Shown here piece by piece: positions 42,866 through 64,000 of a stretch of DNA of 64,000 nucleotides (position 1 is its first letter; each line of letters opens with the position of its first letter). This DNA is from Immundisolibacter sp. (GTDB taxonomy: Bacteria; Pseudomonadota; Gammaproteobacteria; Immundisolibacterales; Immundisolibacteraceae). The notes beneath the pieces were generated by a model. It saw only the letters and a list, made by a program, of their open reading frames with translations. It was not told the DNA's origin and ran no database searches. Position numbers and translations under genes: made by a program. Where the stretch lies: the NCBI RefSeq assembly GCF_014359565.1, contig NZ_JACIZD010000011.1:1-64000 (forward strand), read 5' to 3'.

Positions 42866-42868
42866 GGG

Positions 42869-43578: not shown

Positions 43579-43584
43579 GGCGCC

Positions 43585-44340: not shown

Positions 44341-44346
44341 GGCTTC

Positions 44347-45520: not shown

Positions 45521-45532
45521 GGATCAGGCCGA

Positions 45533-45778: not shown

Positions 45779-45810
45779 GGGCTGCTCCTCGCAGGGGGGG
45801 GTGGCGCCGC

Positions 45811-46752: not shown

Positions 46753-46803
46753 GGTCTTGGCCTCGTGGGTGAGTAGATAAGGTGAGCGGTGGCCGGGGGT
46801 GGC

Positions 46804-47148: not shown

Positions 47149-47191
47149 GGTCGGGACGCTCCTGAGTGAGTGAAGGGGTTGCGGGCCGCGA

Positions 47192-49100: not shown

Positions 49101-49195
49101 GCGTTATCCTCTCGGTGCTGGTGCGGCATCGCGCCGTTGGGCTCATACCCCGAAACGTTGCGGACGTTAGGCAGGGGCGCACCAGCCCCTATCGA

Positions 49196-50455
49196 TCAAT
49201 TCCCCACGATCCACAAGCTCTGCAGCGCCAGCATCTTGCGCTTGGTGCGCACTTCAAAGGCGGCCACATAGCGGCGCCCACCGATCGTCTTGATGAACCG
49301 CATCACCCCGCGCCCCACATTGGACGATCCATCGCGCTCGATCGCATCCGGCGCGTTCAGGATCCGCGGCAACAGGCCATAGTCGGCCGCCGTCACTGCC
49401 ACTTGGCCGCGCGGTGTCTCGGTGGCGGGATCGCCATGAACGTCCTGGACGTGCAGCACCGTCGACGCATCGAGCGCGAAATCGAACAGCCCCACGTCTG
49501 TACCGGTCGCCGCCTTTACCTGCGCGGCCTGATCGCTGGTGAGCAGCCCCATGGTGCGATAGGGCGCAACCGCGTCCGGCACCTGCGGGGCGGCAATCGC
49601 CCGCTGCGCGTAGCGGCGCACGTCGTCGGCCACTGACGGCAACTCGCGGTAGGCGGTGGCGAGCGCATCGCGCTGGGTATCCGGCACGTCCTGCATGTAC
49701 GCCTTGGCCAGCGTGTATTCCCACTGCTGTGTCTTCGCCGCCATGGCGCGCACGGTGTCGCTGACCGTGCCGCCGGGCATGTAGCCCCAGCCCTCGTCGA
49801 TGCCCGGCGGCGCGCCGGTGGCCGGATCGATGCTGTTCCAGTCCGCCGGCAGTGCTTTGTCCGGCTTGCCGCCCAGCCGCCGCGCGCCGGCCAGGCTGCG
49901 CGCGCCGACGATGAAGCACTCGCAGCCCCAGCCGTTGGGCGTGTAGTGCGTGTTCCACCAGGGATGATCCGGCGGCAGGGTGATGCCGTCCCAGCTCAGG
50001 TGCTCCGGACGCGGGTGGCGCACCGAATCGTTGTGGCGGTACACCCAATAGGCGTAATTGCCGGCGCGCAGCTGCGCCAGGCGCCCGGCGTGGTAGGCGG
50101 TCTTGGTGTTGGTGACGTAGATGGTGCGCGTGCGCCAGGCCTCGCCGCCGGCGGTGCCCTCGCCGGTCCAGCCGGTCCAGCCGGTGGCCGCCACGGCGGC
50201 GCGGAAATCCTTGCGGAATGCCTCCAGGCTGGTGCCCTCGGCCTGCGCGCGGTCGATGGCCGCGGCCAGCGAGGCCAGCAGGTCCGCCTTCTGCGCGCCG
50301 GCCACCATGAAGCCGCTGTCGTGCGCCGCGCCCTGCATGTCGCGCCAGGTGCGGGTCGGCACCAGGTTGCCGAGCTTCTGCCGGAAAAACGCGACCTGCT
50401 CGTCGAAGGGCCGGTGAAACACGCCGGCCGTGGTGGACGGCAGCGGCTCAGGCAC
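49196..50455 (-). CDS. Minor head protein (Mu gpF-like) with C-terminal PBECR nuclease-like domain
   Basis: A 419-residue protein. The N-terminal two thirds is the F/SPP1 gp7-type minor head protein (RTRTIYVTNTKTAYHAGRL; RHPRPEHLSWDGITLPPDHP; NGWGCECFIVGARS with paired Cys). The last 110 residues (VGLFDFALDASTVLHVQDVH, ADYGLLPRILNAPDAIE, VMRFIKTIGGRRYVAAFEVR) match the phage Barnase/EndoU/ColicinE5/RelE-like (PBECR) fold, a nuclease-like domain often attached to minor capsid proteins. Such domains may be injected with DNA. Activity is not provable here. Confidence 0.8.
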   Translation of the reverse strand: MPEPLPSTTAGVFHRPFDEQVAFFRQKLGNLVPTRTWRDMQGAAHDSGFMVAGAQKADLLASLAAAIDRAQAEGTSLEAFRKDFRAAVAATGWTGWTGEGTAGGEAWRTRTIYVTNTKTAYHAGRLAQLRAGNYAYWVYRHNDSVRHPRPEHLSWDGITLPPDHPWWNTHYTPNGWGCECFIVGARSLAGARRLGGKPDKALPADWNSIDPATGAPPGIDEGWGYMPGGTVSDTVRAMAAKTQQWEYTLAKAYMQDVPDTQRDALATAYRELPSVADDVRRYAQRAIAAPQVPDAVAPYRTMGLLTSDQAAQVKAATGTDVGLFDFALDASTVLHVQDVHGDPATETPRGQVAVTAADYGLLPRILNAPDAIERDGSSNVGRGVMRFIKTIGGRRYVAAFEVRTKRKMLALQSLWIVGN

Positions 50456-50705
50456 GGCGCCCTGCCTGTGTTGCCGCCAGGCTCTGGCAGGGCACGCAGC
50501 GGGTGGCGTGCGGCATCGCGGCCAGGCGCCGCGGCTCTATCTGTGCGCCGCAGTCGTCGCACTGCGCATCGGTGCGGCCGGCGGCGGCAGCGGCGGCGGC
50601 CGCCTCACGCGCGCGGCGCTCGGCATGGCCGGCCAGCACGGCGGCACGCTCGCGCTCGGCCAGGTCGGCGCCCATGTCCAGCCAATCGGCGGGCCGCTCA
50701 TACAT
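50448..50705 (-). CDS. TraR/DksA-type zinc-finger protein
   Basis: An 85-residue protein with an N-terminal helix (DMGADLAERERAAVLAGHAE), an Ala-rich stretch and a C4 zinc finger (CDDCGAQIEPRRLAAMPHAT then RCVPCQ). TraR-like proteins bind the RNA polymerase secondary channel and mimic DksA plus ppGpp; many phages carry one among late genes. It overlaps the minor head gene by eight bases. Confidence 0.8.
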   Translation of the reverse strand: MYERPADWLDMGADLAERERAAVLAGHAERRAREAAAAAAAAGRTDAQCDDCGAQIEPRRLAAMPHATRCVPCQSLAATQAGRRA

Positions 50706-50859
50706 CGAGGTTTGCTCCGATGTCCGGGTCGTCGACCAGCTCGACGATCAATGCAACGCCGTTGCGCAGCGCGGCATCGGCGTCGGAGCGGTCGATCGCC
50801 CGGCCGATGCGCTGCACCAGCAGCCACAGGCATAGCAGGATGACAGCGGCCGTGCCCAT
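50698..50859 (-). CDS. Small single-span membrane protein
   Basis: A 53-residue frame whose ATG at 50859 overlaps the portal stop (TGATG). It begins with a transmembrane helix (MGTAAVILLCLWLLVQRIG) and ends in an acidic soluble part (ELVDDPDIGANLDV). Coupled overlaps on both sides support that it is translated. Function unknown. Confidence 0.55.
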   Translation of the reverse strand: MGTAAVILLCLWLLVQRIGRAIDRSDADAALRNGVALIVELVDDPDIGANLDV

Positions 50860-52412
50860 CAGCTCTGCGCCACGTCGTAGCGGCCGGCCGCCTGCGCCGC
50901 TTCCTGCGCGGCGGCGAGGAGGGCGCCGAGCTGGTCGGCCGGCAGATCGCCGTAGCTGTCCACGATCAGCGCGCGCAGCTCGGCGAAGCTCGTGGGCTGG
51001 GCCTGACGCACCATGTCGGTGAGCGTGTCGATCCAGCCGTCGATGACGGGCTGCGCCAGGGGCGCCAGCTGCGCCGCAAGCTGCGCGCTGGGCAGCGGCG
51101 CGTTGTCCTGGGCGGCGGCAAACTGCGCCGCCGGATCCGCGCGGCGATGGTACGGGCTGGGGCGCCACTCGCCGCCCACCGGCAGGCCCGCCGCGGCCGG
51201 CCCGGCGAAGTTGGCATCGGCCGGCAGCGGCAGGGCGGCTGTCGGCGCCGGCACAGCCCTGGCCTGCCAGTCGCCGCCATAGGTGGCGGTGATGTAGGAC
51301 AGCGACGGCACGAAGCCCATCTCGGTGATGGTCTTGTCGCGGGTGGCGCGCGAGTCCAGATCCTCCGGCTCCTCCGTGATCCGATACACGCGCGGCACGG
51401 CGGCGCCGGGGAAATTCCACTCGGTCAGCCAGCGCGCCGGGCCGAGGGTGAAGGACTCGCAGATCAGGTCCGCGTCGGCCTTGATGATGTCCTTGCGCAC
51501 GTCGGCCTGCAGGTTGTCATTGCCGAGCTTGCCGGGCGTGCCCTGCGTGCTGGCGGTCTGGCCGAGCACCACCTTCTGGATCGCCGCATTCATGGCGGCG
51601 TACAGCGTGGCGTAATCCGATGCGCCGCTGCGGCTGGCTTCAAGCAGGGCGATCTCCATGCCCTTGGGCAGGATGATGCCGCTGTCGGTCTGGATGGCCC
51701 GCACCGCGGCCAGCAGCTTCTGGCGCTCCCCCTCGGTGGCGTCCGGGTCGTAGCGGCCCACGCCCGTCGGCATCCCGAACTTCTCGGCGTAGATCAGCCA
51801 GAACGCTACATCGTTGCGCTTGAACTTCACCGACCAGTACAGCCAGTGCGCCAGGCCCAGGCCGTAGGGTTCGTCGTCGTGGTCCGCGCCGCAGGAAAAG
51901 TGCCAGAAATAGGGCGGCAGGGCCGGTATGCCCTCGGTCATGGTGGACATGGTGAGCAGGCGCAGGTCGCCATCCTTGCCGAAGCGGAAGCGGCGCCGGT
52001 TGCGGACCTTGATCGTGTCCATCACCACGCGGGCGCCTTCCGGGCGGTAGATCATCTCGGCCACCGCGTAGCCGTAGAACACGCCAAACAGCATCTTGGT
52101 CGTGACGTTGTCCCAGCCGATGCGGTGCAGCTGCGCCTTGAGGTCGGCCGCCGCCGCCTTGTCGATGGCGCGCTTGCCGCCGGGCTCCACATCCCACTCG
52201 CACTGCGTCACGGCCAGCATGCGCTGGTTCAGCGCGGACTTGACCTCCTCATCGCTGAGCACGTGCTCATAGATCAGCAGGTCGTAGTTGCCGCGCGTGC
52301 GCAGCACGTTGTCGAATGGCAGCAGGAACGGCCCGACAAAGCCGCGGGTGATGTCGACGCCGTCCGCCGTGGTGGCGATTTCGCGGCCCGGCTCCGGGCG
52401 TGGGGTGCTCAT
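50859..52412 (-). CDS. Portal protein (DUF935, Mu gp29-like)
   Basis: A 517-residue DUF935 portal, forming the ring through which DNA enters and leaves the head. Visible: YEHVLSDEEVKSALNQRMLA, ECDW-like CEWDVEPGG, FGVFYGYAVAEMIYRPEG, FRFGKDGDLRLLTMSTMTEG, YGLGLAHWLYWSVKFKRNDV and GMEIALLEASRSGASDYATL. The last 100 residues are Ala/Gln-rich. It overlaps the terminase stop by four bases. Confidence 0.9.
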   Translation of the reverse strand: MSTPRPEPGREIATTADGVDITRGFVGPFLLPFDNVLRTRGNYDLLIYEHVLSDEEVKSALNQRMLAVTQCEWDVEPGGKRAIDKAAAADLKAQLHRIGWDNVTTKMLFGVFYGYAVAEMIYRPEGARVVMDTIKVRNRRRFRFGKDGDLRLLTMSTMTEGIPALPPYFWHFSCGADHDDEPYGLGLAHWLYWSVKFKRNDVAFWLIYAEKFGMPTGVGRYDPDATEGERQKLLAAVRAIQTDSGIILPKGMEIALLEASRSGASDYATLYAAMNAAIQKVVLGQTASTQGTPGKLGNDNLQADVRKDIIKADADLICESFTLGPARWLTEWNFPGAAVPRVYRITEEPEDLDSRATRDKTITEMGFVPSLSYITATYGGDWQARAVPAPTAALPLPADANFAGPAAAGLPVGGEWRPSPYHRRADPAAQFAAAQDNAPLPSAQLAAQLAPLAQPVIDGWIDTLTDMVRQAQPTSFAELRALIVDSYGDLPADQLGALLAAAQEAAQAAGRYDVAQS

Positions 52413-53845
52413 GCGTAGCCTCCGAAGTCATTGCCGCCGGTCACGGTGCCGAAGCCCGCGCTGCCAAAGTCGGTGCCGTCCAGCGCCGATGCACGCCGAC
52501 CGGTGGACTGGAACTCGATCGGCGCCGCCGGGCTGGATGCCGCGTGGATCGCCAGCGCCAGCGCCCAGAAGCGGTCGGCGTGGCCGTCCGGCGTGCGCTC
52601 GGCCGTGAAGCGGATATTGCCGGCGGCCGTGGTCTGCTTGGTCACGCTGCGCAGGTCGGCGCGGATGGTCGGGTCGTAGGGGATGCGCAGCTTGCGGTCC
52701 TGCATGGCGCCGCGCACCGGGTAGGCCAGCGCTTCCTTGACCTTGACGGTGAAGGTCACGCCCTCGACCCGGTATTCGTCAAAACGGTGCTGCGCATCAT
52801 CGACCCAGCCGATGCCCAGGCCGGTGGCATCGATACAGGTGCGCCGGCAGCGCTGGATCCACGGCCAGATGATCGCGTCCTGCTTGGGTTTGGGCATGGC
52901 CTTGAGCTCCTCGATGTGGCGCGTGTACAGCACGTCGCCCAGGCGCTCGACCACCCACAGCACGGTCAGGTCGCACTTGCGGCCGATGTCGATGCCCAGA
53001 TACAGCTCGCGGCCCTCCATCTGCCACCAGTCGATGTCTTGTGCGTACTCGGCGGAGGAGATCAGGTCGTATTCCAGGAACGCGACGTCGTCATCGGCCG
53101 GCCTGCATTGGTATTCCTGCTCGAACGATTCCTCGTCCACGCAGCCGGCGCGCACGAAGTCGAAATAGGCCGCTTCGTCCATGTCCTGCCGCTCGTCGTC
53201 GGGCGGCAGCTTCTGCTGCAATTTGAATAGCAGGCCCTCGTTGAGGGCGTCTTCGAGCGTCACCCGGTGCAGGCTGATGCCCTTGGGGTTGCCGGCCTCG
53301 CGGATCTCGCGGATCAGCAGGTTGAAGAAGTTGTGGCTGCCGCGATGCGTGCTGAACGCCTCCAGGCTGCCGCCCCAGGTGATGCCCGGATAGGCGATGG
53401 CCCACAGCTTGCGCGGATCCTTGTGCAGCGCGAACTCATCGAGCACGCGCCCGCCACGCTTGCCGGCCTGCGCGTCCGGGTTGCTCGACATGCTGTGGAT
53501 CACGTGCCCGTTGGCGAATTTCAGGTCGAAGCTGGTCTGTCGCTGATCGCCGTCGAGCACCTGCTCGCCGAAATCCTGCGCGCCGATGCGCAGCACGTCC
53601 GCCCACAGCTTGCAGTCATCGATGAACAGCCGCGCCTGCATTTCGTCGCGGCTGCTGACCCACTGGTCCGAGCGGGCGCCCTGGCGCGCGGTGCGCCGCA
53701 CGCAGGCATAGGCCGACGACCAGGACCAGCCGATCTGCCGGGATTTCTCGGCCAGCTTCAGGCGGGCGTTGTCATTGATCCAGCGCGACTGAAACGGCAG
53801 AAACGTGGCCTTGGGGTCGGCCGGGATGCAGCGCGCACGGCCCAT
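52409..53845 (-). CDS. Terminase large subunit (Mu gp28-like)
   Basis: A 478-residue packaging motor. Starts at ATG 53845, two bases after the small-subunit stop. ATPase-side landmarks are FLPFQSRWINDNARLKLAEK, SRQIGWSWSSAY (adenine/P-loop region) and GKRGGRVLDEFALHKDPRKL (Walker B-like DEFA). The nuclease half starts near YLGIDIGRKCDLTVLWVVE and includes CIDATGLGIGWVDDAQ with conserved acidic residues. It drives DNA translocation into the head and, in Mu-like phages, headful cutting. Confidence 0.9.
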   Translation of the reverse strand: MGRARCIPADPKATFLPFQSRWINDNARLKLAEKSRQIGWSWSSAYACVRRTARQGARSDQWVSSRDEMQARLFIDDCKLWADVLRIGAQDFGEQVLDGDQRQTSFDLKFANGHVIHSMSSNPDAQAGKRGGRVLDEFALHKDPRKLWAIAYPGITWGGSLEAFSTHRGSHNFFNLLIREIREAGNPKGISLHRVTLEDALNEGLLFKLQQKLPPDDERQDMDEAAYFDFVRAGCVDEESFEQEYQCRPADDDVAFLEYDLISSAEYAQDIDWWQMEGRELYLGIDIGRKCDLTVLWVVERLGDVLYTRHIEELKAMPKPKQDAIIWPWIQRCRRTCIDATGLGIGWVDDAQHRFDEYRVEGVTFTVKVKEALAYPVRGAMQDRKLRIPYDPTIRADLRSVTKQTTAAGNIRFTAERTPDGHADRFWALALAIHAASSPAAPIEFQSTGRRASALDGTDFGSAGFGTVTGGNDFGGYA

Positions 53846-53846
53846 G

Positions 53847-54386
53847 TCACACCACGCCCTGCAGGCGCGCGTCGATGGCGGCGAGCGTTTCGTCCGACAC
53901 GCCGGCGCCAGCCGCCAGCTTGCGCACGGCATCGCGGGCGGTGGCCAGCTTGCCGCGCACGTCCTGCGCCCACTTGTTGCGGCTCACGCTGGCGCGGGTC
54001 AGGGTGGCGATGTTGCGGGCCGCCTTGCCCAGGATCTCCACCCGCTTGGCCGGGTCGGCCTCGTCGGCGGCGTCTTGCAGCGCCAGCAGGGATTCGAATA
54101 TCTCGGTCTGCACCAGGCTGATGATGGCGTTGCTGCGCTCGTCGGCTTCGTCCGGCGCGGCGGCGGCGATCAGGCGGGCCGCCTCGGTGCTCGCCTTGAT
54201 CGCCCCCAGCCGCCGCTCCAACTTCTGCCCGTAGGCGCCGACGGCGCTCTTGCCGATGCTGTAGCCGTGCTCGGCCAGCCACTCGGACAGGGCCACGTAG
54301 CCGCCGAATCCGTTGTCGATGATCTTCGCGTCGAGCTCGCGCCGAGTCTCCTCGTCGAGCAGGTCGATCTTGCTGGGCGCCGGCAC
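53847..54386 (-). CDS. Terminase small subunit-like protein (DUF3486, Mu gp27-like)
   Basis: A 179-residue helical protein: PSKIDLLDEETRRELDAKII, NGFGGYVALSEWLAEHGYSI, GKSAVGAYGQKLERRLGAIK. The N-terminal part is a DNA-binding helix-turn-helix of the DUF3486 family (Mu gp27), which takes the place of a small terminase. Directly upstream of the large subunit. Confidence 0.87.
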   Translation of the reverse strand: MPAPSKIDLLDEETRRELDAKIIDNGFGGYVALSEWLAEHGYSIGKSAVGAYGQKLERRLGAIKASTEAARLIAAAAPDEADERSNAIISLVQTEIFESLLALQDAADEADPAKRVEILGKAARNIATLTRASVSRNKWAQDVRGKLATARDAVRKLAAGAGVSDETLAAIDARLQGVV

Positions 54387-54389
54387 GGC

Positions 54390-54701
54390 TCACACCTTCG
54401 GCGGGCGGGCGATGCCCGGCTGGCATTCGACCGCGTACTCGACGATGTCCACCCCGTGGCGGGCCAGGCTGGCGTGCCAGTTGCCGGTGTGCCGGCCGTC
54501 GATGTTCAGCAGCGCGCGGTCGGCCAGGTAGTCCAGCTCGCGGCGAATCTCGCGCTGCGTGGCGTCGGCGTACAGGCCCTGGATGGTCAGCAGCAGCACC
54601 ACCTCGGTGGTGCCCTCTGGGCGCGCGTAATCCAGCGCCCGCAGCAGGTTCCAGCGGATGATCTCGCGCCGCATGCGATGAAAATCGATACTGTCAACCA
54701 C
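54390..54701 (-). CDS. Winged-helix-like phage protein (Mu gp26-like position)
   Basis: A 103-residue protein starting at GTG 54701 just before the upstream stop (overlap of eight bases). It reads DFHRMRREIIRWNLLRALDY, then LLLTIQGLYADATQREIRRE, LDYLADRALLNID and HTGNWHASLARHGVDIVEY, which looks like a winged-helix fold with the wing residues near the end. Located between gp25-like and gp27-like genes. Role unknown. Confidence 0.65.
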   Translation of the reverse strand: MVDSIDFHRMRREIIRWNLLRALDYARPEGTTEVVLLLTIQGLYADATQREIRRELDYLADRALLNIDGRHTGNWHASLARHGVDIVEYAVECQPGIARPPKV

Positions 54702-54999
54702 CTTTCGCCCCCCGTAACTGCACCATCTTGACCTCGGCATTGATCGCGTCCAGCTTGGCCTCGATGACCGTCTGGCCCCGGATGTAGTCCTCGCGGCGCA
54801 CGTAGCGCTCCGGCAGCTCCGCGCGTAGCGCCATCACGTCGCGCTCCACCTGGCGCCAGCCCTTCGATTCCTGGCCGATTTGGGCGAGCCGCTCATCGAT
54901 GCGTAGCTCCACCTGCCTGAGCAGCAACTTCACCAGGCCCGCGAACGCGCCCAGCAGCGTCACGGCCAGGCTGATCGTTTGCCAAAGCGGCAAGGTCAT
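54694..54999 (-). CDS. DUF2730-like membrane/coiled-coil protein (Mu gp25-like)
   Basis: A 101-residue protein starting at ATG 54999, overlapping the Rz1 stop (ATGA). Residues 1-30 are one transmembrane segment (LPLWQTISLAVTLLGAFAGL), then a charged helix (QVELRIDERLAQIGQESKGW) and VIEAKLDAINAEVKMVQLRG. This is the layout of DUF2730/Mu gp25. Function unknown. Confidence 0.65.
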   Translation of the reverse strand: MTLPLWQTISLAVTLLGAFAGLVKLLLRQVELRIDERLAQIGQESKGWRQVERDVMALRAELPERYVRREDYIRGQTVIEAKLDAINAEVKMVQLRGAKGG

Positions 55000-55346
55000 T
55001 TCCACGGTACGCCGCCGGTGTCCTGAATCCTGAGACTGGGCGCCAAGCCCAGCTTTGCCGCGCTGGCGCGGTCCGCGTTGGCCCGATCGAGCACCGCCTG
55101 CAGGTCGGCGCCCCACAGCAGCCCGTCCAGCGCGCAGACGGCCGGCACGCCATTCGGCAGCCGGCAGTTGCGCGGCGGGGCGGGCGGCATGGGCAGCGGA
55201 TCGGTCAACGCCGCCGGCAGCGGCGCATATAAGGTGATCGGCACTTCGACCAGCTCAGTGCGTACCGGCGCCGGCCGCATCGCCCCACAGGCGGTCAGCC
55301 ACAGCGGCACACACAGGCAAATCGCGCAGCGCAGCGCAGTTCTCAT
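54996..55346 (-). CDS. Outer-membrane spanin lipoprotein (Rz1-like)
   Basis: A 116-residue protein with a lipoprotein signal peptide (MRTALRCAICLCVPLWLTAC, lipobox LTAC with the modified Cys at 20). The mature part is rich in Pro as in Rz1 proteins (PITLYAPLPAALTDPLPMPP). Its start lies inside the upstream Rz-like gene in another frame, the classic Rz/Rz1 overlap. Together the pair fuses inner and outer membrane at lysis. Confidence 0.8.
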   Translation of the reverse strand: MRTALRCAICLCVPLWLTACGAMRPAPVRTELVEVPITLYAPLPAALTDPLPMPPAPPRNCRLPNGVPAVCALDGLLWGADLQAVLDRANADRASAAKLGLAPSLRIQDTGGVPWK

Positions 55347-55689
55347 CGGCGGTGGCCTGTTGCATCAGGGATTGTTTGCGCGCCTTGGCGGCGGCGGTGA
55401 GGTCGGCAATCTGCTGCGCGCGGGCGGCCAGCTCGGCCTCCTGCGCGCGCTGCTGCGCCTGGCGTTGCGTGATCTCGCGCGCCAGCGTGCCCCGCACGGC
55501 AATCAGGTTGGCGGCGTTCTGGTCGGCGGTCTGGCGGCAGGATTCGAGCTGGCCTTGCAGCGTGGCGTTGTCGCGCGTGAGCGTCGTCACGCGGTCCGCC
55601 TGCGTGCCGTGGCCCCAGCCGTAGCCCACGCGCAGCGCGCCCAGCGCCAGCGCCAGCACCGCCAGCAGAATCGCGCGAGTGCCGATCAT
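55255..55689 (-). CDS. Inner-membrane spanin (Rz-like)
   Basis: A 144-residue protein starting at ATG 55689, which overlaps the lysozyme stop (ATGA). One N-terminal signal anchor (IGTRAILLAVLALALGALRV), then a long periplasmic coiled coil (TLTRDNATLQGQLESCRQTA; AEITQ/AQQRAQEAELAARAQQ region) and two Cys near the end. It overlaps Rz1 by 92 bases in a different frame. Confidence 0.8.
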   Translation of the reverse strand: MIGTRAILLAVLALALGALRVGYGWGHGTQADRVTTLTRDNATLQGQLESCRQTADQNAANLIAVRGTLAREITQRQAQQRAQEAELAARAQQIADLTAAAKARKQSLMQQATADENCAALRDLPVCAAVADRLWGDAAGAGTH

Positions 55690-56324
55690 GGGCACACCGC
55701 CTCGCCGGTCCAGCCGGCCGCCAGATAGGCCGGCTCCAGGCGCAGCAGGATGCGTCGCGGATACGCGGTGTTTTCCCGGTGCGCCCAGGCGGCCCGGACG
55801 CGGTACGCCTCCACCGCACGCCAGTCGTCAGGATCAGCACCGTCGCGCAGCGCGGCGCGGCGTTCGCGGTCGAGCATCCGCTCGCCGCCGTTGTATTTGC
55901 GTAGCGTCAAGGCCCAATGTGAGCACTCATGCAGCTCACCGGCCGCCATCGGCTGCACACGGTTGTACAGCCAGGCCATGTAACAAGCCTGGGCGCGCAG
56001 CGACCACTGCGGATCCCACGGGTCCGGCGGGCCGACTGCCGGGCACACCGTCGGCAGCCAGCGCGCGGTGGCCGGCGTGAACTGCGTCAGGCCCTGCGCG
56101 TAGGGGCTGGCGGCGCGCGGGTTCCAGCCGCTCTCCTGGTGCACCTGCGCCGCCAGGCGGGCGACCGGCGCCGCCAGGCCGAAGTTGCGCACCGCCTCGC
56201 GCTCGATGGCCAGGCGGTAGGTCACGGCCACCTGCGGCACGGCCGGCGCGGCCACTGCATCCGCGCAGCGCGCCAGCAATGCCAGCAGCAGCACGCCGAG
56301 CAGGAAGGCCGCCAGATTGCGCAT
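55686..56324 (-). CDS. Lytic transglycosylase (endolysin, SLT fold)
   Basis: A 212-residue protein with an N-terminal signal-anchor (RNLAAFLLGVLLLALLARCA). The lysozyme-like core has the catalytic Glu in QVHQESGWNPRAASPYAQGL (ES motif) followed by TQFTPATARWLP, and ACYMAWLYNRV and TLRKYNGGERMLDR later. It would cut peptidoglycan glycan strands; the anchor suggests a SAR-type or exported endolysin. Start at ATG 56324 overlapping the holin stop (GTG at 56327 is an alternative). Confidence 0.83.
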   Translation of the reverse strand: MRNLAAFLLGVLLLALLARCADAVAAPAVPQVAVTYRLAIEREAVRNFGLAAPVARLAAQVHQESGWNPRAASPYAQGLTQFTPATARWLPTVCPAVGPPDPWDPQWSLRAQACYMAWLYNRVQPMAAGELHECSHWALTLRKYNGGERMLDRERRAALRDGADPDDWRAVEAYRVRAAWAHRENTAYPRRILLRLEPAYLAAGWTGEAVCP

Positions 56325-56659
56325 CACGGCACAAAAGCCAACGCGATGATCGCCGCGCACATGATGCCCGTGCAGCATTTCCAGTCGGTGCCGATCTCGA
56401 TGCCGGTCGGGTCTTTCGGCATCGGGTAAATGCGCCGGAAACCCCAGTGGATCACCAGCCCGACCAGGCCGCCCATCAGCACCTTGCTGATCCCGAACAG
56501 CGCCGGCCCGGCTTTGATCGGTGCCTGCACCATCACCACGACGAAGCAGATCAGCCACAGTAGCCACAGCGGCCACAGCTTCACCAGCCAGCCGTCCGGC
56601 GCGCATGCGCGCTGCGCCTCTACGACTACGGAATCCCAGAACGCCTTGAGTGATTGCAT
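56324..56659 (-). CDS. Putative holin
   Basis: A 111-residue membrane protein (ATG 56659; GTG at 56665 also possible) with three hydrophobic segments: KLWPLWLLWLICFVVVMVQA, SKVLMGGLVGLVIHWGF and CCTGIMCAAIIALAFV. It is first in the holin-endolysin-Rz-Rz1 cassette, which is the basis for the name. It would make membrane lesions that time lysis. Its ribosome site lies in a hairpin, listed separately. Confidence 0.68.
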   Translation of the reverse strand: MQSLKAFWDSVVVEAQRACAPDGWLVKLWPLWLLWLICFVVVMVQAPIKAGPALFGISKVLMGGLVGLVIHWGFRRIYPMPKDPTGIEIGTDWKCCTGIMCAAIIALAFVP

Positions 56660-56665
56660 CGGCAC

Positions 56666-56684
56666 GGCTCCGAAAAAAGGAGCC
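56666..56684 (-). promoter_or_regulatory. Hairpin covering the holin ribosome-binding site
   Basis: On the minus strand GGCTCC-TTTTTTC-GGAGCC forms a six-base-pair stem with a U-rich loop. The GGAG of its right arm is the only good ribosome site for the holin ATG, eight bases further on. Folding would hide it, so holin translation may be regulated or delayed by this structure. Confidence 0.45.
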
Positions 56685-56879
56685 GGCGGACGGCCGAGGA
56701 GGTAGCCGCCCGCCGGGCCGACGTGGAGGAGGTCACGCCGACGCCGTCACTTTCCCCGCTCAGGCGCCGCGAGGCATTGGGCCGCGTTCACAGGAATTCC
56801 CGCGCGCGCGCGTGGATAGTGGCGGGCAGTCGCCGACGTGCTGCACGCGCACAGTGCCAGCGTAGGGTGGAGCCGAAGC

Positions 56880-57212
56880 ATGCCGATCAAACCCGAGAAC
56901 AAAGCTCGATATCCCAAGGACTGGAAGCGCATCGCGGACGCAATCAGAGAGCGTGCCGGTCATCGATGCGAGGGCTCGCCAGCCTACCCCGACTGCCGCG
57001 CTGCCAACGGCACGCCGCACCCGGTGACTGGCTCACGCGTGGTGCTGACGGTGGCACATCTGGACCATACGCCGGAGAACTGCGAACCGCAGAACCTGAA
57101 GGCGATGTGCCAGCGATGCCACCTGACATATGACGCAGAGCACCACAAGCGAACCGCCTATGCGACCCGAAAGGCGGCAGCGCAAACAGCGGACTTATTC
57201 GACGCCGCTTAA
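56880..57212 (+). CDS. HNH-type endonuclease-like protein
   Basis: A 110-residue protein on the plus strand, opposite to the late genes. GGAG lies about 10 bases before the ATG. It has a beta-beta-alpha-metal core: GHRCEGSPAYPDCRAANG, then VAHLDHTPENCEPQNLKAMC with the His-Asn pattern and QRCHLTYD with the last metal ligand. Four Cys suggest a structural zinc. It may be a homing or packaging-associated nuclease. Forms a small plus-strand pair with the Acb2-like gene. Confidence 0.78.
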   Translation: MPIKPENKARYPKDWKRIADAIRERAGHRCEGSPAYPDCRAANGTPHPVTGSRVVLTVAHLDHTPENCEPQNLKAMCQRCHLTYDAEHHKRTAYATRKAAAQTADLFDAA

Positions 57213-57254
57213 TCACGGCAGAACCCATCGTCGGCAACAGCCAAGGAGCGAAAC

Positions 57255-57536
57255 ATGGAAAACCAGCACGAAAAGATCACGGGCTACCGCGACCTCACCC
57301 AGGACGAAATCGACCTGATGAACGAAGGCAAGGCCCTGGCCGAGCAATGCGGTGAGTACATCGCCAAGCTGCGCCGATACGTGCCGCAGAACATGAGCGG
57401 CCCGGCGGGTGGCGAGGCGGATGCTTTCAAGCCCGGCGCAACCCTGGATCAGCGGTGGATCAATATCGGCGCGACCGACTTGCAGCGTGGCTTCATGGCC
57501 GTGATTCGCGGCATCGCACAGCCAACAACCTTCTAA
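57255..57536 (+). CDS. acb2: Acb2-like cyclic-nucleotide sponge (anti-CBASS)
   Basis: A 93-residue helical protein: KITGYRDLTQDEIDLMNEGK at the start and RWINIGATDLQRGFMAVIRG, then AQPTTF at the end. This matches Acb2, which binds and sequesters cyclic di- and trinucleotides and was first found in the Mu-like phage PaMx33. Residues I recall as ligand contacts fall at the same numbers here: Tyr11, Lys26 and Arg67. It probably forms a hexamer. It follows the HNH gene after 42 bases and ends tail to tail with the nuclease at 57533 (three-base overlap). Early or constitutive expression is suggested by its strand but no promoter was identified. Confidence 0.85.
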   Translation: MENQHEKITGYRDLTQDEIDLMNEGKALAEQCGEYIAKLRRYVPQNMSGPAGGEADAFKPGATLDQRWINIGATDLQRGFMAVIRGIAQPTTF

Positions 57537-58015
57537 CCTGGGCGCTCTAATGCAGCGCGCCGGCCCCGCCGAAACTCCCACGGCGGCACCGGAACATCCG
57601 CCGCCCACAATCCACGCCGGGCGGCGCGGGCCTGCTCCTCGATGCGCTTGAGCGCAACGTCTTTGCCATAGCGGACATACCACCACGCCATGCCGCGGCG
57701 CACCTGCTCGGCATTGGCATCCGCGCCCCCGCAGAACACCCGCCCCAGCACCCGCCCGTAACGATCCTTCCCCTGCTCGCGCACCGTCGCCACCTGGCCG
57801 AAGCACAGCTCGGACAGTGACTGTTTCGACCGCTGCCCGAAGTCCTGCCGCGACTCCGGCGCGTCGATCTCCACCAGCCGCACCTTCACCGCCCGGCCGG
57901 CCTGCATCACCGCCAGCGTGTCGCCGTCGGTGATGCCGATCACCTTGCCGGTCCAGTCTCCGGCCGCGGCGGTGAGAGAGCAGCACAGCAGGATGGCGGA
58001 GAATGGCGCTTTCAT
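57533..58015 (-). CDS. Secreted thermonuclease-family nuclease (SNase fold)
   Basis: A 160-residue staphylococcal-nuclease-like protein with a signal peptide (MKAPFSAILLCCSLTAAAGD). Catalytic region residues are visible: ITDGDTLAV with the metal-binding Asp, VKVRLVEIDAPESRQDFGQR with the catalytic Arg and Asp/Glu, then VREQGKDRYGRVLGRVFCGG. Its end is Arg-rich. It is cytoplasm-exported by prediction and may degrade DNA outside the cell or in the periplasm; as prophage cargo it may be a lysogenic conversion gene. Overlaps the lipoprotein gene by four bases. Confidence 0.82.
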   Translation of the reverse strand: MKAPFSAILLCCSLTAAAGDWTGKVIGITDGDTLAVMQAGRAVKVRLVEIDAPESRQDFGQRSKQSLSELCFGQVATVREQGKDRYGRVLGRVFCGGADANAEQVRRGMAWWYVRYGKDVALKRIEEQARAARRGLWAADVPVPPWEFRRGRRAALERPG

Positions 58016-58704
58016 TCCGCTGGCCTCAGACAGGCATCGATGGATGCCGCGATGCCTCGTAAAGCGCGGATTGCGGCATCCGGGTGGGCAGCGTGCCAGG
58101 CGCCGACAGGCGCGAAACCATCGTTGGGGAGAGTGCCCGTATCGAGATGAGCACGGGTGATATTGCGAAAGCGCAGGTGGCTGCGGTCGGCGTTTGCGGA
58201 GGCGGCCAGCTCGAAGCGAATCACCGCGCGGGTGGTATCCACCAACGAGGCGCCGCCGTCGGCGGAACCGATGACGATGGCCGTTGCGCTGGCAGGATCC
58301 TCGTATTTGAAGATGTCGCCGCCTGGCACCGCAACGGTCTGCATACGCGGCGGCTGGAACAGGACAAGAGGCGGCGTGGTGCCGCCGGATAGGGTCACGG
58401 GCGAATTGCTTACAGCCATCGCCAGACACATCTTGAGGCGCCCGAAATCGGCGCCGCGCACATCCATCGCCAGCTCGTCGATGTAGCTGCCGCCTTCCGC
58501 TCTGGCCCGCAGGCTCACGCCCGGCTCTGCGCGCATGTCGGTCTCCGACTGCATCGATGCGCAGCCGGCCATGCCGGCGGCCAGCAGCAGCGTCATTGGC
58601 GCCCCCACCGGCGTCCGATATGACCCCGAAACGGATCGATTCCTGGCGTATATCACCAGCGCGCACGCGATCAAGAAGATCACAAGCCATTCACTTGACC
58701 CCAT
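58012..58704 (-). CDS. Prophage membrane or lipoprotein of unknown function
   Basis: If started at ATG 58704 it has 230 residues with an N-terminal helix (SSEWLVIFLIACALVIYARN). A second start at ATG 58596 gives 194 residues with a lipoprotein signal (MTLLLAAGMAGCASM, lipobox MAGC) and a GGGG-rich site before it. The mature part is about 170 residues with an acidic, beta-rich look (GGDIFKYEDPASATAIVIGS). No family was recognised. It sits between repressor and secreted nuclease and is probably co-expressed with both during lysogeny. Confidence 0.6.
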   Translation of the reverse strand: MGSSEWLVIFLIACALVIYARNRSVSGSYRTPVGAPMTLLLAAGMAGCASMQSETDMRAEPGVSLRARAEGGSYIDELAMDVRGADFGRLKMCLAMAVSNSPVTLSGGTTPPLVLFQPPRMQTVAVPGGDIFKYEDPASATAIVIGSADGGASLVDTTRAVIRFELAASANADRSHLRFRNITRAHLDTGTLPNDGFAPVGAWHAAHPDAAIRALRGIAASIDACLRPAE

Positions 58705-59170
58705 GGTCGTTTGTCTCCGGTTGTGTCAAAGGTTTCTTGGTTTTCTTTTCCGGCGCCAGGCGCGCCGCCAGCTTCTGAATCTGGGCCTTGTCTTCAGGAG
58801 CGCATGCGCGATAACTCGCCAGCAATGCCTCCTCCTCGTCCTCTAAATCATAAGACTGCACCAGCATCTCGAAGAACTGGGTCTGTAACCGGCGGAACTC
58901 TTCCGTGCCCTTCGCCGCCAGTCTCGCCATCTCGTTCGCCGCGGCAATCGCGCTGAACCGATTCCTCAGCTTCCGCGTACTGCCCGTCAGGATGTAGTCC
59001 ACGTTCCAGCCGGCCCCAGCCAGCCCGGCGAGCACGTCTGCGCCGGGCCGCGCTGTATCGCGTTCGTACTTGCCCCACATCTCACGTGACACACCGCCCA
59101 GTCGGGCCGCCTCGGCCTGGCTGAGTGAGTGCTCCGCACGCTGTTCCGCCAGTCTGGAACCAATGCTCAC
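58691..59170 (-). CDS. XRE-family repressor (probable prophage repressor)
   Basis: A 159-residue regulator. Residues 1-65 form a Cro/C1-type helix-turn-helix (LSQAEAARLGGVSREMWGKY, then ERDTARPGADVL and WNVDYILTG). The rest is a helical part with a Glu-rich turn (YDLEDEEEALLASY) and a basic tail, with no peptidase domain for self-cleavage. Divergent from the early genes across a short region with a palindrome, the position expected for the lysogeny repressor. Downstream genes on the same strand may be lysogenically expressed. Confidence 0.83.
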   Translation of the reverse strand: MSIGSRLAEQRAEHSLSQAEAARLGGVSREMWGKYERDTARPGADVLAGLAGAGWNVDYILTGSTRKLRNRFSAIAAANEMARLAAKGTEEFRRLQTQFFEMLVQSYDLEDEEEALLASYRACAPEDKAQIQKLAARLAPEKKTKKPLTQPETNDHGVK

Positions 59171-59187
59171 GTGTACCCCTTGACAAA

Positions 59188-59203
59188 GAGAACTATGTTT
59201 CTC
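59188..59203. promoter_or_regulatory. Operator-like palindrome in the repressor/early divergent region
   Basis: GAGAACTATGTTTCTC is a near-perfect inverted repeat (GAGAA / TTCTC arms). It lies between the divergent repressor and Ner-like genes, next to a TTGACA at 59180. A TATAAC at 59225-59230 could be the -10 box of the early promoter. It is a plausible binding site for the repressor or the Ner-like protein. Confidence 0.5.
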
Positions 59204-59244
59204 ACACTCGCTTCACCTGCCGTTTATAACCGAGAGGGTACGCC

Positions 59245-59457
59245 ATGAAGGAACCGCCGACAGCAGGCCGGGACGCAATGAACCGCGTCAAGGCCGGCTT
59301 CATCCTCCAAAACACGACGCTCAAAGCATGGTGTCGGGCCAACGGGATCGACCCGTCCGCCGTTCGCCAGGCCGTCTACGGTTCCTGGTGCGGTCCGAAG
59401 GGCCGGGCCATGCGTGATCGGGTGATGCAGGCCGCCGGCGTGCGGAAGGCCGCATGA
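59245..59457 (+). CDS. Ner-like/Cro-like early DNA-binding protein
   Basis: A 70-residue basic protein starting right after the divergent promoter region. AGFILQNTTLKAWCRANGID and PSAVRQAVYGSWCGPKGRAM fit a helix-turn-helix. The first early gene at this place in Mu-like phages encodes Ner, which turns down repressor and early transcription. The assignment rests mostly on position and size. Confidence 0.65.
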   Translation: MKEPPTAGRDAMNRVKAGFILQNTTLKAWCRANGIDPSAVRQAVYGSWCGPKGRAMRDRVMQAAGVRKAA

Positions 59458-59747
59458 CCCAGGAATCCATCTTCACCCGGGTGCTGTTCGGCCTGGCCGG
59501 CCACAGCCGCCACGGCCTGCGCCTGAAGCAGATCGCAGACGGCATCGGCGAGTCACCGTCCACCACGCTGCGCAACCTGCAGCGCATGGAGGCCGACGGC
59601 CTGGTCGAGCGCAGCCCCTACGACAAAGACAACTGGCGCCTCACGCCGCGCGTGGTGCAGATGGCGATTGCCCACGCCGAGGAAGTGGCGCGCGAGGAGC
59701 GCCAGCTCGATGAGCTCAAGACCCGTTATTCCCGCAACCCAAACTGA
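59454..59747 (+). CDS. Winged-helix DNA-binding protein (early region)
   Basis: A 97-residue protein starting inside the Ner-like stop (ATGA). It contains a winged-helix domain: HSRHGLRLKQIADGIGESPS, TTLRNLQRMEADGLVERSPY and DNWRLTPRVVQMAIAHAEEV, as in IclR/MarR-type DNA-binding domains. Probably a regulator of early functions. Confidence 0.72.
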   Translation: MTQESIFTRVLFGLAGHSRHGLRLKQIADGIGESPSTTLRNLQRMEADGLVERSPYDKDNWRLTPRVVQMAIAHAEEVAREERQLDELKTRYSRNPN

Positions 59748-59757
59748 GGCTAGAACG

Positions 59758-60708
59758 ATGTCAGGAAGGAACAAGCTGACGGTGGTGCCGCTGAACGCTG
59801 GCCCACAGATGGACCCCGAACTGCTCGCAGAGCGGCGGGCGTTTGTGGTGTCGGCGGTCGAGGGCGGCGACATGCCGACAGCCAAGCAATTGGCTGGATG
59901 GCTGGAAACGGCGACGCATATCGGCCGGATTCAGGCCGCGCTGGTGAACGCGACGGTCGCGGAACGAATTGTCGCTGAATCTTACCGTGCTGTCGCAAAA
60001 TCAAAGAGTTACGAAGGACTCCCCTACCATACACCCGACGGTGAGGCGCGACATGTCGCGTCCTTGGACGAGTTCTGCCAGGCGTTTTTCGGTCGCAGCA
60101 AACGCCGCTGCCAGGAGCTCGCGACAAATCTTGAGGCACTCGGCGCGGAACTGTACGAGGCCGGCGAGCACATCGGCCTGGGCCAGCGCGACTACAACGC
60201 CCTGCGTGCCCTGCCGGCGGACGATCAGGCCGTAGTCAAGGCGGCGCTGGCCGAGGGCTCCGACAAATCGGCGGTGCTGGACCTGCTCAACGAGCTGGCG
60301 AGCCGCCTGCAAGAGGCCAAGGCCGAGAAGGAGACCCTGGACCGGCGGGCCAAGGCCCAGGCCGCCCGCAATCAAGAGCTGCAGGACAGCCTGGCCGATT
60401 CGAAGCACTTCCTGCGCAGCGCGCCCCCGGCGGAGCGGGCGCGGGAAATGCTCATGGAGCTGGCGGCTCAATTCATGGATTCGCGCGTCAGCATTGGCCG
60501 GACCGAAGAGGCCTTGCTCAAGTTCTTCGAATACACCAACGAGCACGAGCTCGACTTCGATGCAGACATCGGCGGGCGGGTCACCGAGCTGCTGATGCCG
60601 GTGCTGGCGATAGCCGGCGAGCTCAAGATTACGCGCGGCATCGACCTGCCGCTGCGGCAGGCAGCGCAGCTGTTATCTGCCCACAAAGACCTGAGCACGG
60701 GCGCCTGA
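59758..60708 (+). CDS. Early-region coiled-coil protein, function unknown
   Basis: A 316-residue protein starting at ATG 59758 with GAGG upstream. The N-terminus is unremarkable; residues about 95-170 (LDEFCQAFFGRSKRRCQELA, GLGQRDYNALRALPADDQAV) look like a DNA-binding helical domain, and about 185-235 is a coiled coil (RLQEAKAEKETLDRRAKAQA). Proteins of this kind precede the transposase gene in BcepMu-like phages. No specific function is known. Confidence 0.65.
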   Translation: MSGRNKLTVVPLNAGPQMDPELLAERRAFVVSAVEGGDMPTAKQLAGWLETATHIGRIQAALVNATVAERIVAESYRAVAKSKSYEGLPYHTPDGEARHVASLDEFCQAFFGRSKRRCQELATNLEALGAELYEAGEHIGLGQRDYNALRALPADDQAVVKAALAEGSDKSAVLDLLNELASRLQEAKAEKETLDRRAKAQAARNQELQDSLADSKHFLRSAPPAERAREMLMELAAQFMDSRVSIGRTEEALLKFFEYTNEHELDFDADIGGRVTELLMPVLAIAGELKITRGIDLPLRQAAQLLSAHKDLSTGA

Positions 60709-60710
60709 CC

Positions 60711-62510
60711 GTGTCGGGCGATGCACTGGTCCGCAGCGCCGCCGCGCAGCTGCTCCGGGCGCCGCATGGCACCAAGAGCAGCATCGTGGCGGGGCTGGCC
60801 GAGCAGCTGGGCTGCTCAGTCGCCACCGCGCACCGCCAACTGTCGCGCGTGCTGGCGGCGCTCAAGCCACGCCAGCGTCGGCGCGATGCCGGGGAAATGG
60901 CGCTTACCCGCGGCGAGGCCATGCACGTCGCCGCGATGATCCAGGAGACGCGCAAGCTGACCGGCACCGGCGAGCTGCCGGTCGAGGAGGCGGTGGAGAT
61001 CCTGCGCGCCAACCAGAGGATTGAGGCGACGCGGGTGGACCCGGCCACCGGCGAGATCGTGCCGCTGAGCGTGTCGTCGATCTGCCGGGCGCTGCGCGCC
61101 TATGGCCTGCATCGGGACCAGCTGACGGCGCCCACGCCGGCCACGCGCCTGTCCAGCCCGCACCCGAACTGGTGCTGGCAGATCGATGCGTCGGTGAGCC
61201 GGCAGTTCTACCTGGCCGACGACGGCACGCGGGTGATGGACAAGGCCGTGTTCTACCGCGGCAAGCCGCAAAACTTCGAGCGCATCGCCGACCGGCGGCT
61301 GTGGCGCTACGTGATCACCGACCACGCCAGCGGCGCCATCGAGCTGCTGTACGTGCAGGGCGCCGAGAGCTCCATCAACCTGCTCACGTCGCTGATCCAC
61401 GCCATGACCCGGCGCACCGACGGCACCATGCACGGCATCCCGCGGCATCTGATGATGGATCCGGGCAGCGCGGTGACCGCCAGCACGACGGCCAATTTCC
61501 TGGCCGCCTGCAATATCACGCCGATCATCAACGAGGTGGGCAACGCCCGCGCCAAGGGCCAGGTCGAGAACGCGCATTACCTGGTCGAGCGGCACTTCGA
61601 GGCGATGCTCAAGCTGCGCGCGCCGGTGAGCAGCCTGGAAGAAATGAACACCCTGGCGCAGGTGTGGGCCTACAACTACAACTCCTCTCGCATCCACACC
61701 CGGACCGGGATGTCCCGCCGTGACGGCTGGCTGCGCATCACGCGCGAGCAGTTGATCGAGGCGCCCTCGATCAAGGTGCTCAGCGGCCTGGCCAACAGCG
61801 CGCCCAAGCCCTGCACGGTGCGCGATTGCCGCATCCGTTTCCGCGGCGCGGTGTACGACGTGAGCGGCATTCCTGGCCTGATCAACGGCCAGCGCGTGCC
61901 GGTGGTGCTCAACGCGCTCGACCCGGACGGCAGCGTGCGCGTGTTGATGCCAGACCCGCACAGCGGGCAGACCGTGCACTACCTCGCGCAGCGGGAGAGC
62001 AGCGACGGCTGGGGCTTTGCCGAGGGCGCCGCGCGCATCGGCGCCGAGTACCGGGCCGCGGCGGAGACACCCGCCGACGCCGCGCGTAAGGAGCTGGAGC
62101 GGCTGGCCATGCAGGTGCGCACGGATGCCGAGGCCGTCGCCGCGCGCAAGGCCAAGAAGCTCGCCTTCAATGGCGCCATCGACCCGATGAAGCACATGCG
62201 CGAGGCCGTGGTGCCGCCGGCCATCCCCCGGGCCGGCACGGCCGGCGTGGTCGAGTCGCCGGTGCTGGCCGAGCGGTACATCGAGCCCAAGCCCATCCGC
62301 CACGAATTCCCGCCCCTGAATCACGTCGAGGCGGCGGTGGCGCTCAAGCCACTGGTGGAGCGCGCCGGCCAGCCCTGGACGGCTGATCTATATGCCCGCA
62401 CCGCCGCGCACTGGCCGGATGGTCTGCCGCGCGACCAGGTGGAGGCATGGGCCGCAGTGCTGGCCGCGCCGACCGGCGGCCTGCGGCTGATCGCGGGAGG
62501 CGCGGAATGA
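60711..62510 (+). CDS. Mu-type transposase A (DDE integrase)
   Basis: A 599-residue transposase starting at GTG 60711, two bases after the upstream stop. N-terminal DNA-binding helices come first (QLGCSVATAHRQLSRVL), then a retroviral-integrase-like core with the catalytic triad D159 (WCWQIDAS), D250 (LMMDPGS) and E286 (AKGQVENAHY), giving the expected D-35-E spacing. A C-terminal beta-barrel domain (RDCRIRFRGAVYDVSGIPGL) and a basic tail follow. It catalyses replicative transposition and integration with B. Similar in layout to the BcepMu transposase. Confidence 0.92.
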   Translation: MSGDALVRSAAAQLLRAPHGTKSSIVAGLAEQLGCSVATAHRQLSRVLAALKPRQRRRDAGEMALTRGEAMHVAAMIQETRKLTGTGELPVEEAVEILRANQRIEATRVDPATGEIVPLSVSSICRALRAYGLHRDQLTAPTPATRLSSPHPNWCWQIDASVSRQFYLADDGTRVMDKAVFYRGKPQNFERIADRRLWRYVITDHASGAIELLYVQGAESSINLLTSLIHAMTRRTDGTMHGIPRHLMMDPGSAVTASTTANFLAACNITPIINEVGNARAKGQVENAHYLVERHFEAMLKLRAPVSSLEEMNTLAQVWAYNYNSSRIHTRTGMSRRDGWLRITREQLIEAPSIKVLSGLANSAPKPCTVRDCRIRFRGAVYDVSGIPGLINGQRVPVVLNALDPDGSVRVLMPDPHSGQTVHYLAQRESSDGWGFAEGAARIGAEYRAAAETPADAARKELERLAMQVRTDAEAVAARKAKKLAFNGAIDPMKHMREAVVPPAIPRAGTAGVVESPVLAERYIEPKPIRHEFPPLNHVEAAVALKPLVERAGQPWTADLYARTAAHWPDGLPRDQVEAWAAVLAAPTGGLRLIAGGAE

Positions 62511-63670
62511 CGCTGCGCCTGAAACCCATGATGGCCGCCGGCCGCATCCGCCAGGCCGAGCTGGCGCTCGCTGCCGGCATCAGCCGGCCGGCGCTGTGCA
62601 GCCTGCTGGCCGCCGGCACCCTGCCCAAGCGCTACGACCGCCCGGAGGTCGAGCAGCGCATCACCGCTTTCCTGTCCCGTCGCGGCCTGCGAAATGCCGC
62701 TGCGTGGGCGGAAAAGGCGGAGCCGCCGTGTTGGAGCACGGCGGCTCCCGATCAACCCCAGAGCTTGCAACCCACCGAGGAGATCGCCGACATGCTACTA
62801 CGCAAGTCCACACTCACGCCGGCCGCGCGCCGGCACTTCAACCTGTCGGGTGACCCGTTCGCCGACCCGGTCACGGCCGACGACGTGTTCCTGTCGCCGG
62901 ACATCCGCTACGTGCGCGAGAGCATGTACCAGGTGGCCCGCCATGGCGGCTTTCTGGCCGTGGTCGGCGAGTCCGGCGCCGGCAAGTCGACGCTGCGCGA
63001 GGAGCTGGTCGATCGCATCCGGCGCGAGGCGCAGGCGGTGATCGTCATCGAGCCCTACGTGCTGGCCATGGAAGGCTCCGACTCGATCGGCCAGACGCTG
63101 CGCAGCCAGCATATCGCCGAGGCGATCATGGCCTGCGTGGCGCCCCTGGCACGCGCCAGGCGCAGCCCGGAGGCGCGCTTTCGCCAGCTGCACGACTGCC
63201 TGCGCGAAAGCGGCCGGGCCGGTCACAGCCACGTGCTGGTGATCGAGGAAGCCCACAACCTGCCGCTGCCCACGCTCAAACACCTCAAGCGGTTCCGGGA
63301 GCTCAAGGACGGCCTGCGGCCGCTGCTGTCGGTGATCCTGATCGGCCAGCCCGAGCTGGGCCTCAAGCTGTCCGAGCACAACCCCGAGGTCCGCGAGGTG
63401 GTGCAGCGCATCGAGGTCGTGCACCTGCCCACGCTCGGCCCGAGCCTGGGCGACTACCTCACGCATCGGTTCAAGCGCCTGGGCGTGGCGCTCGATCAGG
63501 TGGTCGAGCGCGGTGCCCTGGACGCACTGCGCAGCAAGCTCACGCCATCGCGCGGCGACGACAGCCTGCTGTACCCGCTGGCCGTGCACAACGCGCTGGC
63601 GGCGGCGATGAACCGCGCCGCCGACCTGGGCGTGCCGACGGTCACCGCCGACGTGTTCCGGGGGGCCTGA
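62507..63670 (+). CDS. Transposition target-selection ATPase B (MuB-like AAA+)
   Basis: A 387-residue protein starting inside the stop of A (ATGA). An N-terminal helix-turn-helix (AGRIRQAELALAAGISRPAL) is followed by a linker of about 60 residues. The AAA+ domain then has Walker A GESGAGKST near 154, Walker B SHVLVIEEAHN near 243 and a sensor region ILIGQPELG. MuB polymerises on target DNA, delivers it to A and gives immunity against self-insertion. It is also similar to ExeA/TniB proteins. Confidence 0.9.
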   Translation: MTLRLKPMMAAGRIRQAELALAAGISRPALCSLLAAGTLPKRYDRPEVEQRITAFLSRRGLRNAAAWAEKAEPPCWSTAAPDQPQSLQPTEEIADMLLRKSTLTPAARRHFNLSGDPFADPVTADDVFLSPDIRYVRESMYQVARHGGFLAVVGESGAGKSTLREELVDRIRREAQAVIVIEPYVLAMEGSDSIGQTLRSQHIAEAIMACVAPLARARRSPEARFRQLHDCLRESGRAGHSHVLVIEEAHNLPLPTLKHLKRFRELKDGLRPLLSVILIGQPELGLKLSEHNPEVREVVQRIEVVHLPTLGPSLGDYLTHRFKRLGVALDQVVERGALDALRSKLTPSRGDDSLLYPLAVHNALAAAMNRAADLGVPTVTADVFRGA

Positions 63671-63671
63671 C

Positions 63672-64000
63672 ATGAGCCAGATCATCCCCATCGAGCACAT
63701 CACCGTAGAGCCGCCAGTGTGGTGCCACAGCTGCAACGCCATCATCACCGATGCCGTCTATCGGCTGCGCGGCGCCGGCCACATCGCCCTGTGCGATTAC
63801 TGCGTCGGAACGCAGCGCGACGGCACCTTGGAGCGGCGCCAGCCCGACGCCGCCGCCGTGCGCGACCTGGTAACGCTGTCACGGCTCAGCGCCCTGAAGC
63901 TGGACCAGATCGCCGACAGCATCTCGATCGCTTCACCCAACACCGCCCGCGTGATGCGGGATCTCGCCACCGAGACCAACCGCGCCATCGAGCGCCTGAG
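63672..64000 (+). CDS. Early zinc-finger protein, incomplete at right edge
   Basis: At least 109 codons, open to the window end. The start (ATG two bases after B) reads SQIIPIEHITVEPPVWCHSC and then LCDYC, a Cys-x2-Cys pair repeated about 28 residues later, which suggests a zinc ribbon. The rest, including KLDQIADSISIASPNTARVM, resembles a helix-turn-helix. Function unknown. Confidence 0.6.
   Translation, partial: MSQIIPIEHITVEPPVWCHSCNAIITDAVYRLRGAGHIALCDYCVGTQRDGTLERRQPDAAAVRDLVTLSRLSALKLDQIADSISIASPNTARVMRDLATETNRAIERL

Follow-up and report, generated by a model that had tools for sequence, protein, structure and literature searches.

An Acb2-family gene in a B3/Mu-like prophage that interrupts cmr6 of a type III-B CRISPR locus

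Given that a prophage gene resembling acb2, the gene of a cyclic-nucleotide sponge, lies in the window (the whole 64,000-nucleotide stretch of Immundisolibacter sp. DNA analysed here), and that the prophage itself sits within a CRISPR locus tied to cyclic-nucleotide signalling, we asked whether the sponge and the locus have anything to do with one another. An earlier note on this DNA had proposed that they do, i.e., that the sponge could have shielded the phage from precisely this locus, or that it now protects the lysogen. The coordinates of the features are collected in Table 1.

Table 1. Features around the acb2-like gene, numbered from the first base of the window, which is also the first base of the contig
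Feature	Position	Strand	Basis or remark
CRISPR array	24919..27163	.	33 repeats of 36 nt, 32 spacers
Adaptation genes: cas2, weak cas1-like frame, cas1, second cas2-like gene	27162..29653	-	
Presumed effector, a small membrane protein (171 aa) with a SAVED/CARF-like domain	29698..30213	-	beside csx16
csx16, predicted cA4 ring nuclease	30217..30513	-	profile matches
cmr6, C-terminal part	30518..31753	-	Cmr6 by TIGR01898; separated from N-terminal part by prophage
6-bp target duplication TTCGCG	left copy 31838..31843; right copy contig 67418-67423	.	flank comparison
B3/Mu-like transposable prophage, part within the window	31844..64000	.	phage gene content, ends, duplication; runs on to contig 67417
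HNH endonuclease gene (phrog_1571)	56880..57212	+	precedes acb2 by 42 nt on the same strand
Shine-Dalgarno-like AAGGAG before acb2	57243..57248	+	read directly
acb2-like gene, sponge-family protein of 93 aa	57255..57536	+	Pfam, PDB match, alignment, predicted fold
Prophage transposase (phrog_310) and transposition ATPase (phrog_296) genes	60711..63670	+	

The prophage gene encodes an intact Acb2-family protein

The reading frame of the acb2-like gene is open and starts with ATG, with the AAGGAG motif ending 6 bases ahead of it. Its product matches PF24729 (Acb2_Tad1_hairpin) with 54.4 bits, twice the Pfam cut-off of 27, and this is its sole Pfam match above cut-off; the PADLOC and NCBIfam models gave no match. 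When the product was compared with all PDB chains (phmmer), it aligned without a gap, residues 1-93 on 1-93, with 8h2j ('p26', E 3.2e-17), which is Acb2 solved with 3',3'-cGAMP. In line with the earlier note, the 93-residue protein thus matches Acb2 along its full length.

An alignment of 43 homologues revealed eight invariant residues, Gly10, Tyr11, Arg12, Asn23, Lys26, Arg67, Met81 and Pro90, and the same eight emerged from the 41 sequences left when two rows from annotated phage records were removed. Tyr11, Lys26 and Arg67, which the note had singled out, are at the positions it gave, and all three columns are invariant. These three residues are presumed ligand contacts of the Acb2 dinucleotide pocket. 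As for Tyr11, a role in the ligand pocket is supported in print, as the Y8A substitution of T4 Acb2 disrupts dinucleotide binding (PMC12657218), and in the profile alignment the tyrosine of the GY pair of T4 Vs.4 falls on Tyr11. The lysine of Vs.4 likewise aligns with Lys26, and an Asp lies opposite Arg67.

We also compared structures, as the note had suggested. An AlphaFold monomer model built from the 41 sequences (mean pLDDT 80.2) presents two long antiparallel helices, at residues 16-40 and 66-88, connected by a weakly predicted loop (pLDDT about 51-65); the short N-terminal helix of Acb2 was not seen in this model. The nine best Foldseek matches in the PDB were all Acb2 or Vs.4 (E 8e-5 to 0.11), the tenth reaching only E 1.2, and the three best VIA-align matches were 8h2j, 7uq2 and 8h2x (Z 8.2-8.5), followed by unrelated helical chains from Z 7.0 downward, to which we gave no meaning. 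The predicted fold is therefore Acb2-like. Yet because the loop is weak and one-domain helical hairpins reach middling Z by chance, the fold alone would not suffice for membership and, the product being such a hairpin, the step from Z 8.2 to 7.0 is too small to serve as sole evidence. It is sequence and fold taken together that place the protein in the family: the gene encodes an intact Acb2-family member and not a chance match, intact being judged on its sequence, i.e., an unbroken frame in which every family-invariant residue is present.

Among known proteins, the closest are the Acb2 proteins of Pseudomonas phages (8h2j, 8h2x; KU884561 PaMx33), which share with the present one the length of 93 aa, the gapless alignment, the two-helix fold and Tyr11, Lys26 and Arg67, but are only about 41% identical to it (40.9% for the PaMx33 record) and differ in the inter-helix loop. 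T4 Vs.4 (PDB 7uq2) is matched by profile (E 2.7e-6) and by fold (Z 8.2 over 81 residues), though at about 22% identity and with the Asp opposite Arg67. The PF24729 hairpin is, by Pfam definition, also common to Tad1, whose two long helices are preceded by an N-terminal beta-sheet according to a review (PMC12043709); in the predicted model of the present protein, by contrast, just 15 residues precede the first helix and there is no sheet.

By tblastn, relatives of the gene occur in 211 of 50,697 phage records, all at less than 60% identity, and these include Beetrevirus as well as PaMx33 and PaMx43 (40.9%). IMG/VR yielded 70 acb2 loci with best-segment identities of at most 71%, and another 63 loci were retrieved from bacterial genomes. 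Within the order Immundisolibacterales, the gene was found solely in the present genome (one of eight examined).

A B3/Mu-like prophage interrupts cmr6 of a type III-B locus

The sponge gene lies inside a prophage, as the earlier note had claimed, and we could delimit this prophage on both sides: it spans contig positions 31844-67417 (35,574 bp), its ends read TG...CA, and it is flanked by a short target duplication. Along with the transposase and transposition ATPase genes and other Mu-like genes, these features identify it as B3/Mu-like. It further encodes repressor-like, Mor, Gam, terminase, portal, protease, major head and major tail proteins, a tape measure protein, a tail assembly protein and an endolysin, so that packaging and lysis functions are covered. 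By DNA, the nearest annotated phage is Leptolyngbya phage Lsp-JY19 (20% of a 24.9-kb query at 77%), followed by B3. Of note, a gene for a staphylococcal-nuclease-like protein (PF00565, 57533-58015) adjoins acb2 on the opposite strand, within the prophage.

The prophage interrupts cmr6 near codon 34. When its two flanks were joined at the duplication, an open frame was restored that reads MSIAAVPHYLGED...YLPIWTSRE, DQEREV... and continues into the 411-residue frame of the C-terminal part; a same-genus genome (G002) has a related gene starting MSIAAVPSYL. To the right of the prophage lie the genes for Cmr5, Cmr4, Cmr3 and Cas10/Cmr2, the last with its GGDD motif retained, and to the left those for Csx16, the SAVED-like protein, the Cas1 and Cas2 proteins and then the array. 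With Cas10/Cmr2, Cmr3-6 (Cmr6 in two pieces), adaptation genes and an array, the locus is of type III-B; cmr1 was not identified on the contig, which ends upstream of cas10. Between cas10 and that end lies a truncated open frame of 268 aa (contig 73180-73986), which matched none of the Pfam, NCBIfam and PADLOC models.

The prophage thus does sit in a CRISPR locus that signals by cyclic nucleotides, as had been noted. Of the two signalling components named there, Csx16 was found, while the description of the other as a SAVED-domain effector stood in part: the protein has a hydrophobic N-terminus and matches the PADLOC models 'CARF, 2 TMs' (279.5 bits) and SAVED-TM (169.5 bits), but stays under the SAVED cut-offs of both Pfam and NCBIfam.

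acb2 lies outside the late operon

We next consider how acb2 is placed within the phage. The gene (+) stands between the late genes (-) and a block of nuclease, unknown and repressor-like genes (-) and, together with the HNH gene, whose product has no Pfam match, it shares its strand with the early genes and is outside the late operon. In Beetrevirus and B3-like phages of the same transposable type that carry the same gene family (vB_Pae_CF78a, locus L076; Lsp-JY19, locus L143), acb2 instead runs with the late genes. A search of 135 other acb2 loci extended this pattern: in 14 of the 14 that also carry a relative of the present prophage's late genes, acb2 is co-directional with them, while in a fifteenth locus (L101) the only relatives are those of the transposition genes, oriented like acb2, and the remaining 120 have relatives of neither. 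The position of the present gene is therefore a modest oddity.

Lsp-JY19 has an acb2 of its own, beside the capsid gene in the late operon, and the two acb2 products are 38% identical although the terminases of the two phages are 80% identical; from this we infer that the present copy was probably acquired separately or moved. At the corresponding place, the + strand gene of Lsp-JY19 (P0006) shows no visible likeness to acb2. When 16 other genes of the prophage were tested, any of them was shared by just 3 of 70 viral and 13 of 63 genomic acb2 loci, which shows that acb2 moves largely independently of the phage backbone. The HNH gene and acb2 as a travelling pair were considered and rejected, with HNH relatives near acb2 in only two loci (L030 and L092).

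Its place beside the repressor block, on the early-gene strand and away from the late operon with which the gene runs in all 14 comparable loci, could also mean that acb2 is expressed in the lysogen, as a unit of its own with the HNH gene, and guards the lysogen or the induced phage from cyclic-nucleotide suicide signalling set off by other phages. We consider this unlikely, though deserving of some weight. A scan of positions 56550-59500 for sigma-70-like promoters, which does not reach organisms with other promoter types, returned nothing above shuffled sequences, and according to a review, Acb2 acts on induction and not in maintenance (PMC12043709). Terminator-like sites around acb2 occurred at chance level only.

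Does the sponge act on the type III-B system?

In this strain, no cyclic-nucleotide immunity was found besides the type III-B locus with its SAVED-like membrane effector. The check for CBASS elsewhere in the genome that the earlier note had called for, carried out with the profiles PF18134 and PF18144, uncovered no SMODS or AGS_C match, and besides the protein adjoining csx16 there was only a weak SAVED match (E 0.37). This absence says little either way, given that the phage has to encounter further hosts as well. Across host genomes, SMODS matches above cut-off were found in 6 of 50 acb2-bearing genomes and in 22 of 299 genomes of a phylum sample, i.e., without significant excess (p 0.26), the two sets being unmatched and some of the 50 lying outside the sampled phylum. 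The 50 come from the 63 genomic loci, with L104 (by title the same isolate as L098) and L128-L139 left out, and also served for the PF22335 survey described below.

Could the sponge then serve the phage against type III signalling, soaking up cyclic oligoadenylate from the Cmr complexes of hosts such as the present one and so permitting entry into cells with a locus of this kind? The phage did become established in a cell with a GGDD Cas10, Csx16 and a SAVED-like effector, whose genome yielded neither a SMODS nor an AGS_C match. The ligands of Acb2 listed in the review are cyclic dinucleotides, cA3 and cAAG, and binding of cA3 could, it states, affect type III immunity (PMC12043709). Even so, we judge it very improbable that the present protein binds type III cyclic oligoadenylates, be it cA3 or, by divergence, cA4, and acts as a sponge-type anti-CRISPR.

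Several observations led us to this judgement. The Csx16 tested in vitro degraded cA4 and neither cA3 nor cA6 (PMC12409355), and because it is cA4-specific, the messenger at the present locus is more likely cA4. In the print consulted, no statement either way was found on binding of cA4 by Acb2, and a literature search for Acb2 with type III or cA4, whose scope took in few subscription papers, returned no title or abstract start that gives Acb2 as an anti-CRISPR. Moreover, the messenger output of type III systems has been argued to be so large that sponging could be fruitless, and sponges as type III anti-CRISPRs have been doubted (PMC13148439).

The genomic evidence points the same way. Compared with the prophage, the 32 spacers gave a best match of 14 nt, against 13 nt for reversed spacers, and self-targeting of the prophage was rejected on that basis; a best match of 15 nt to the other retrieved acb2 loci (part of the set) was taken as chance. 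Relatives of nine cas proteins from the present locus were absent near acb2 in the 135 other loci (70 viral, 63 genomic and two phage records), which span at most about 20 kb each, except for L143 (28.7 kb), and are in many cases much shorter. PF22335, surveyed in acb2-bearing genomes alone, had matches at E <= 0.001 in 33 of the 50, with 15 above cut-off; with a single exception the matches do not exceed about 35 bits, and most of them are confined to the second half of the model; these low-scoring matches are presumably GGDEF cross-hits. A match at the level of Cas10 was seen in just one of the 50 genomes.

Finally, the insertion splits cmr6. Because the prophage interrupts this gene, the messenger-making complex in the lysogen lacks an intact subunit gene, which undercuts the suggestion that the sponge now protects the lysogen from this system. 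The companion suggestion, that it shielded the phage from the system on entry, is likewise not borne out, given the split cmr6, the cA4 specificity of Csx16, the lack of a spacer match and the lack of relatives of these cas genes at other acb2 loci.

Discussion

Taken together, we hold it very probable that the gene encodes an Acb2-family sponge with which a B3/Mu-like temperate phage counters CBASS-type signals, and that this phage landed in the type III-B locus by transposition. The product, whose mode of action is most likely that of other Acb2 proteins, would form a two-helix hairpin, most likely assembling into a hexamer; it would bind cyclic dinucleotides and probably also cyclic trinucleotides such as cA3, and CBASS-type effectors would thereby stay untriggered during phage replication. 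Its transposition into the type III-B locus is what brought the phage there and cut cmr6. Mu-like phages transpose into near-random sites, and the phage thus needs no special reason to be at a CRISPR locus. A different acb2 in the sister phage Lsp-JY19 indicates, moreover, that phages of this kind make use of the gene independently of the present locus. Most likely, then, sponge and landing site are unrelated, and the evidence at hand makes their meeting at the CRISPR locus a coincidence of place. Against this explanation stand the CBASS unseen in the strain, the absence of a SMODS excess, the weakly predicted loop and the loss of Arg67 from the corresponding position of T4 Vs.4.

That acb2 is a functionless relic in a decaying prophage is very improbable, considering its intact frame, all eight family-invariant residues and good Shine-Dalgarno sequence, and a prophage that keeps both ends, the duplication and genes for transposition, head, tail, packaging and lysis.

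As the evidence stands, what is striking about acb2 is its location, the gene itself being an ordinary one for counter-defence. Its product extends the family into a lineage of which few genomes have been sampled, and the prophage that carries it disrupts a CRISPR effector gene. Were the protein to bind messengers of type III systems, it would answer the question of whether type III anti-CRISPRs include sponges in addition to ring nucleases.

Incidentally, the stretch that separates the array from the effector genes contains cas2-like genes and cas1-like frames in duplicate, one of the cas1 frames being full and the other weak and below the Pfam cut-off. The small SAVED/CARF-like protein next to csx16, a presumed type III membrane effector, is worth testing in its own right.
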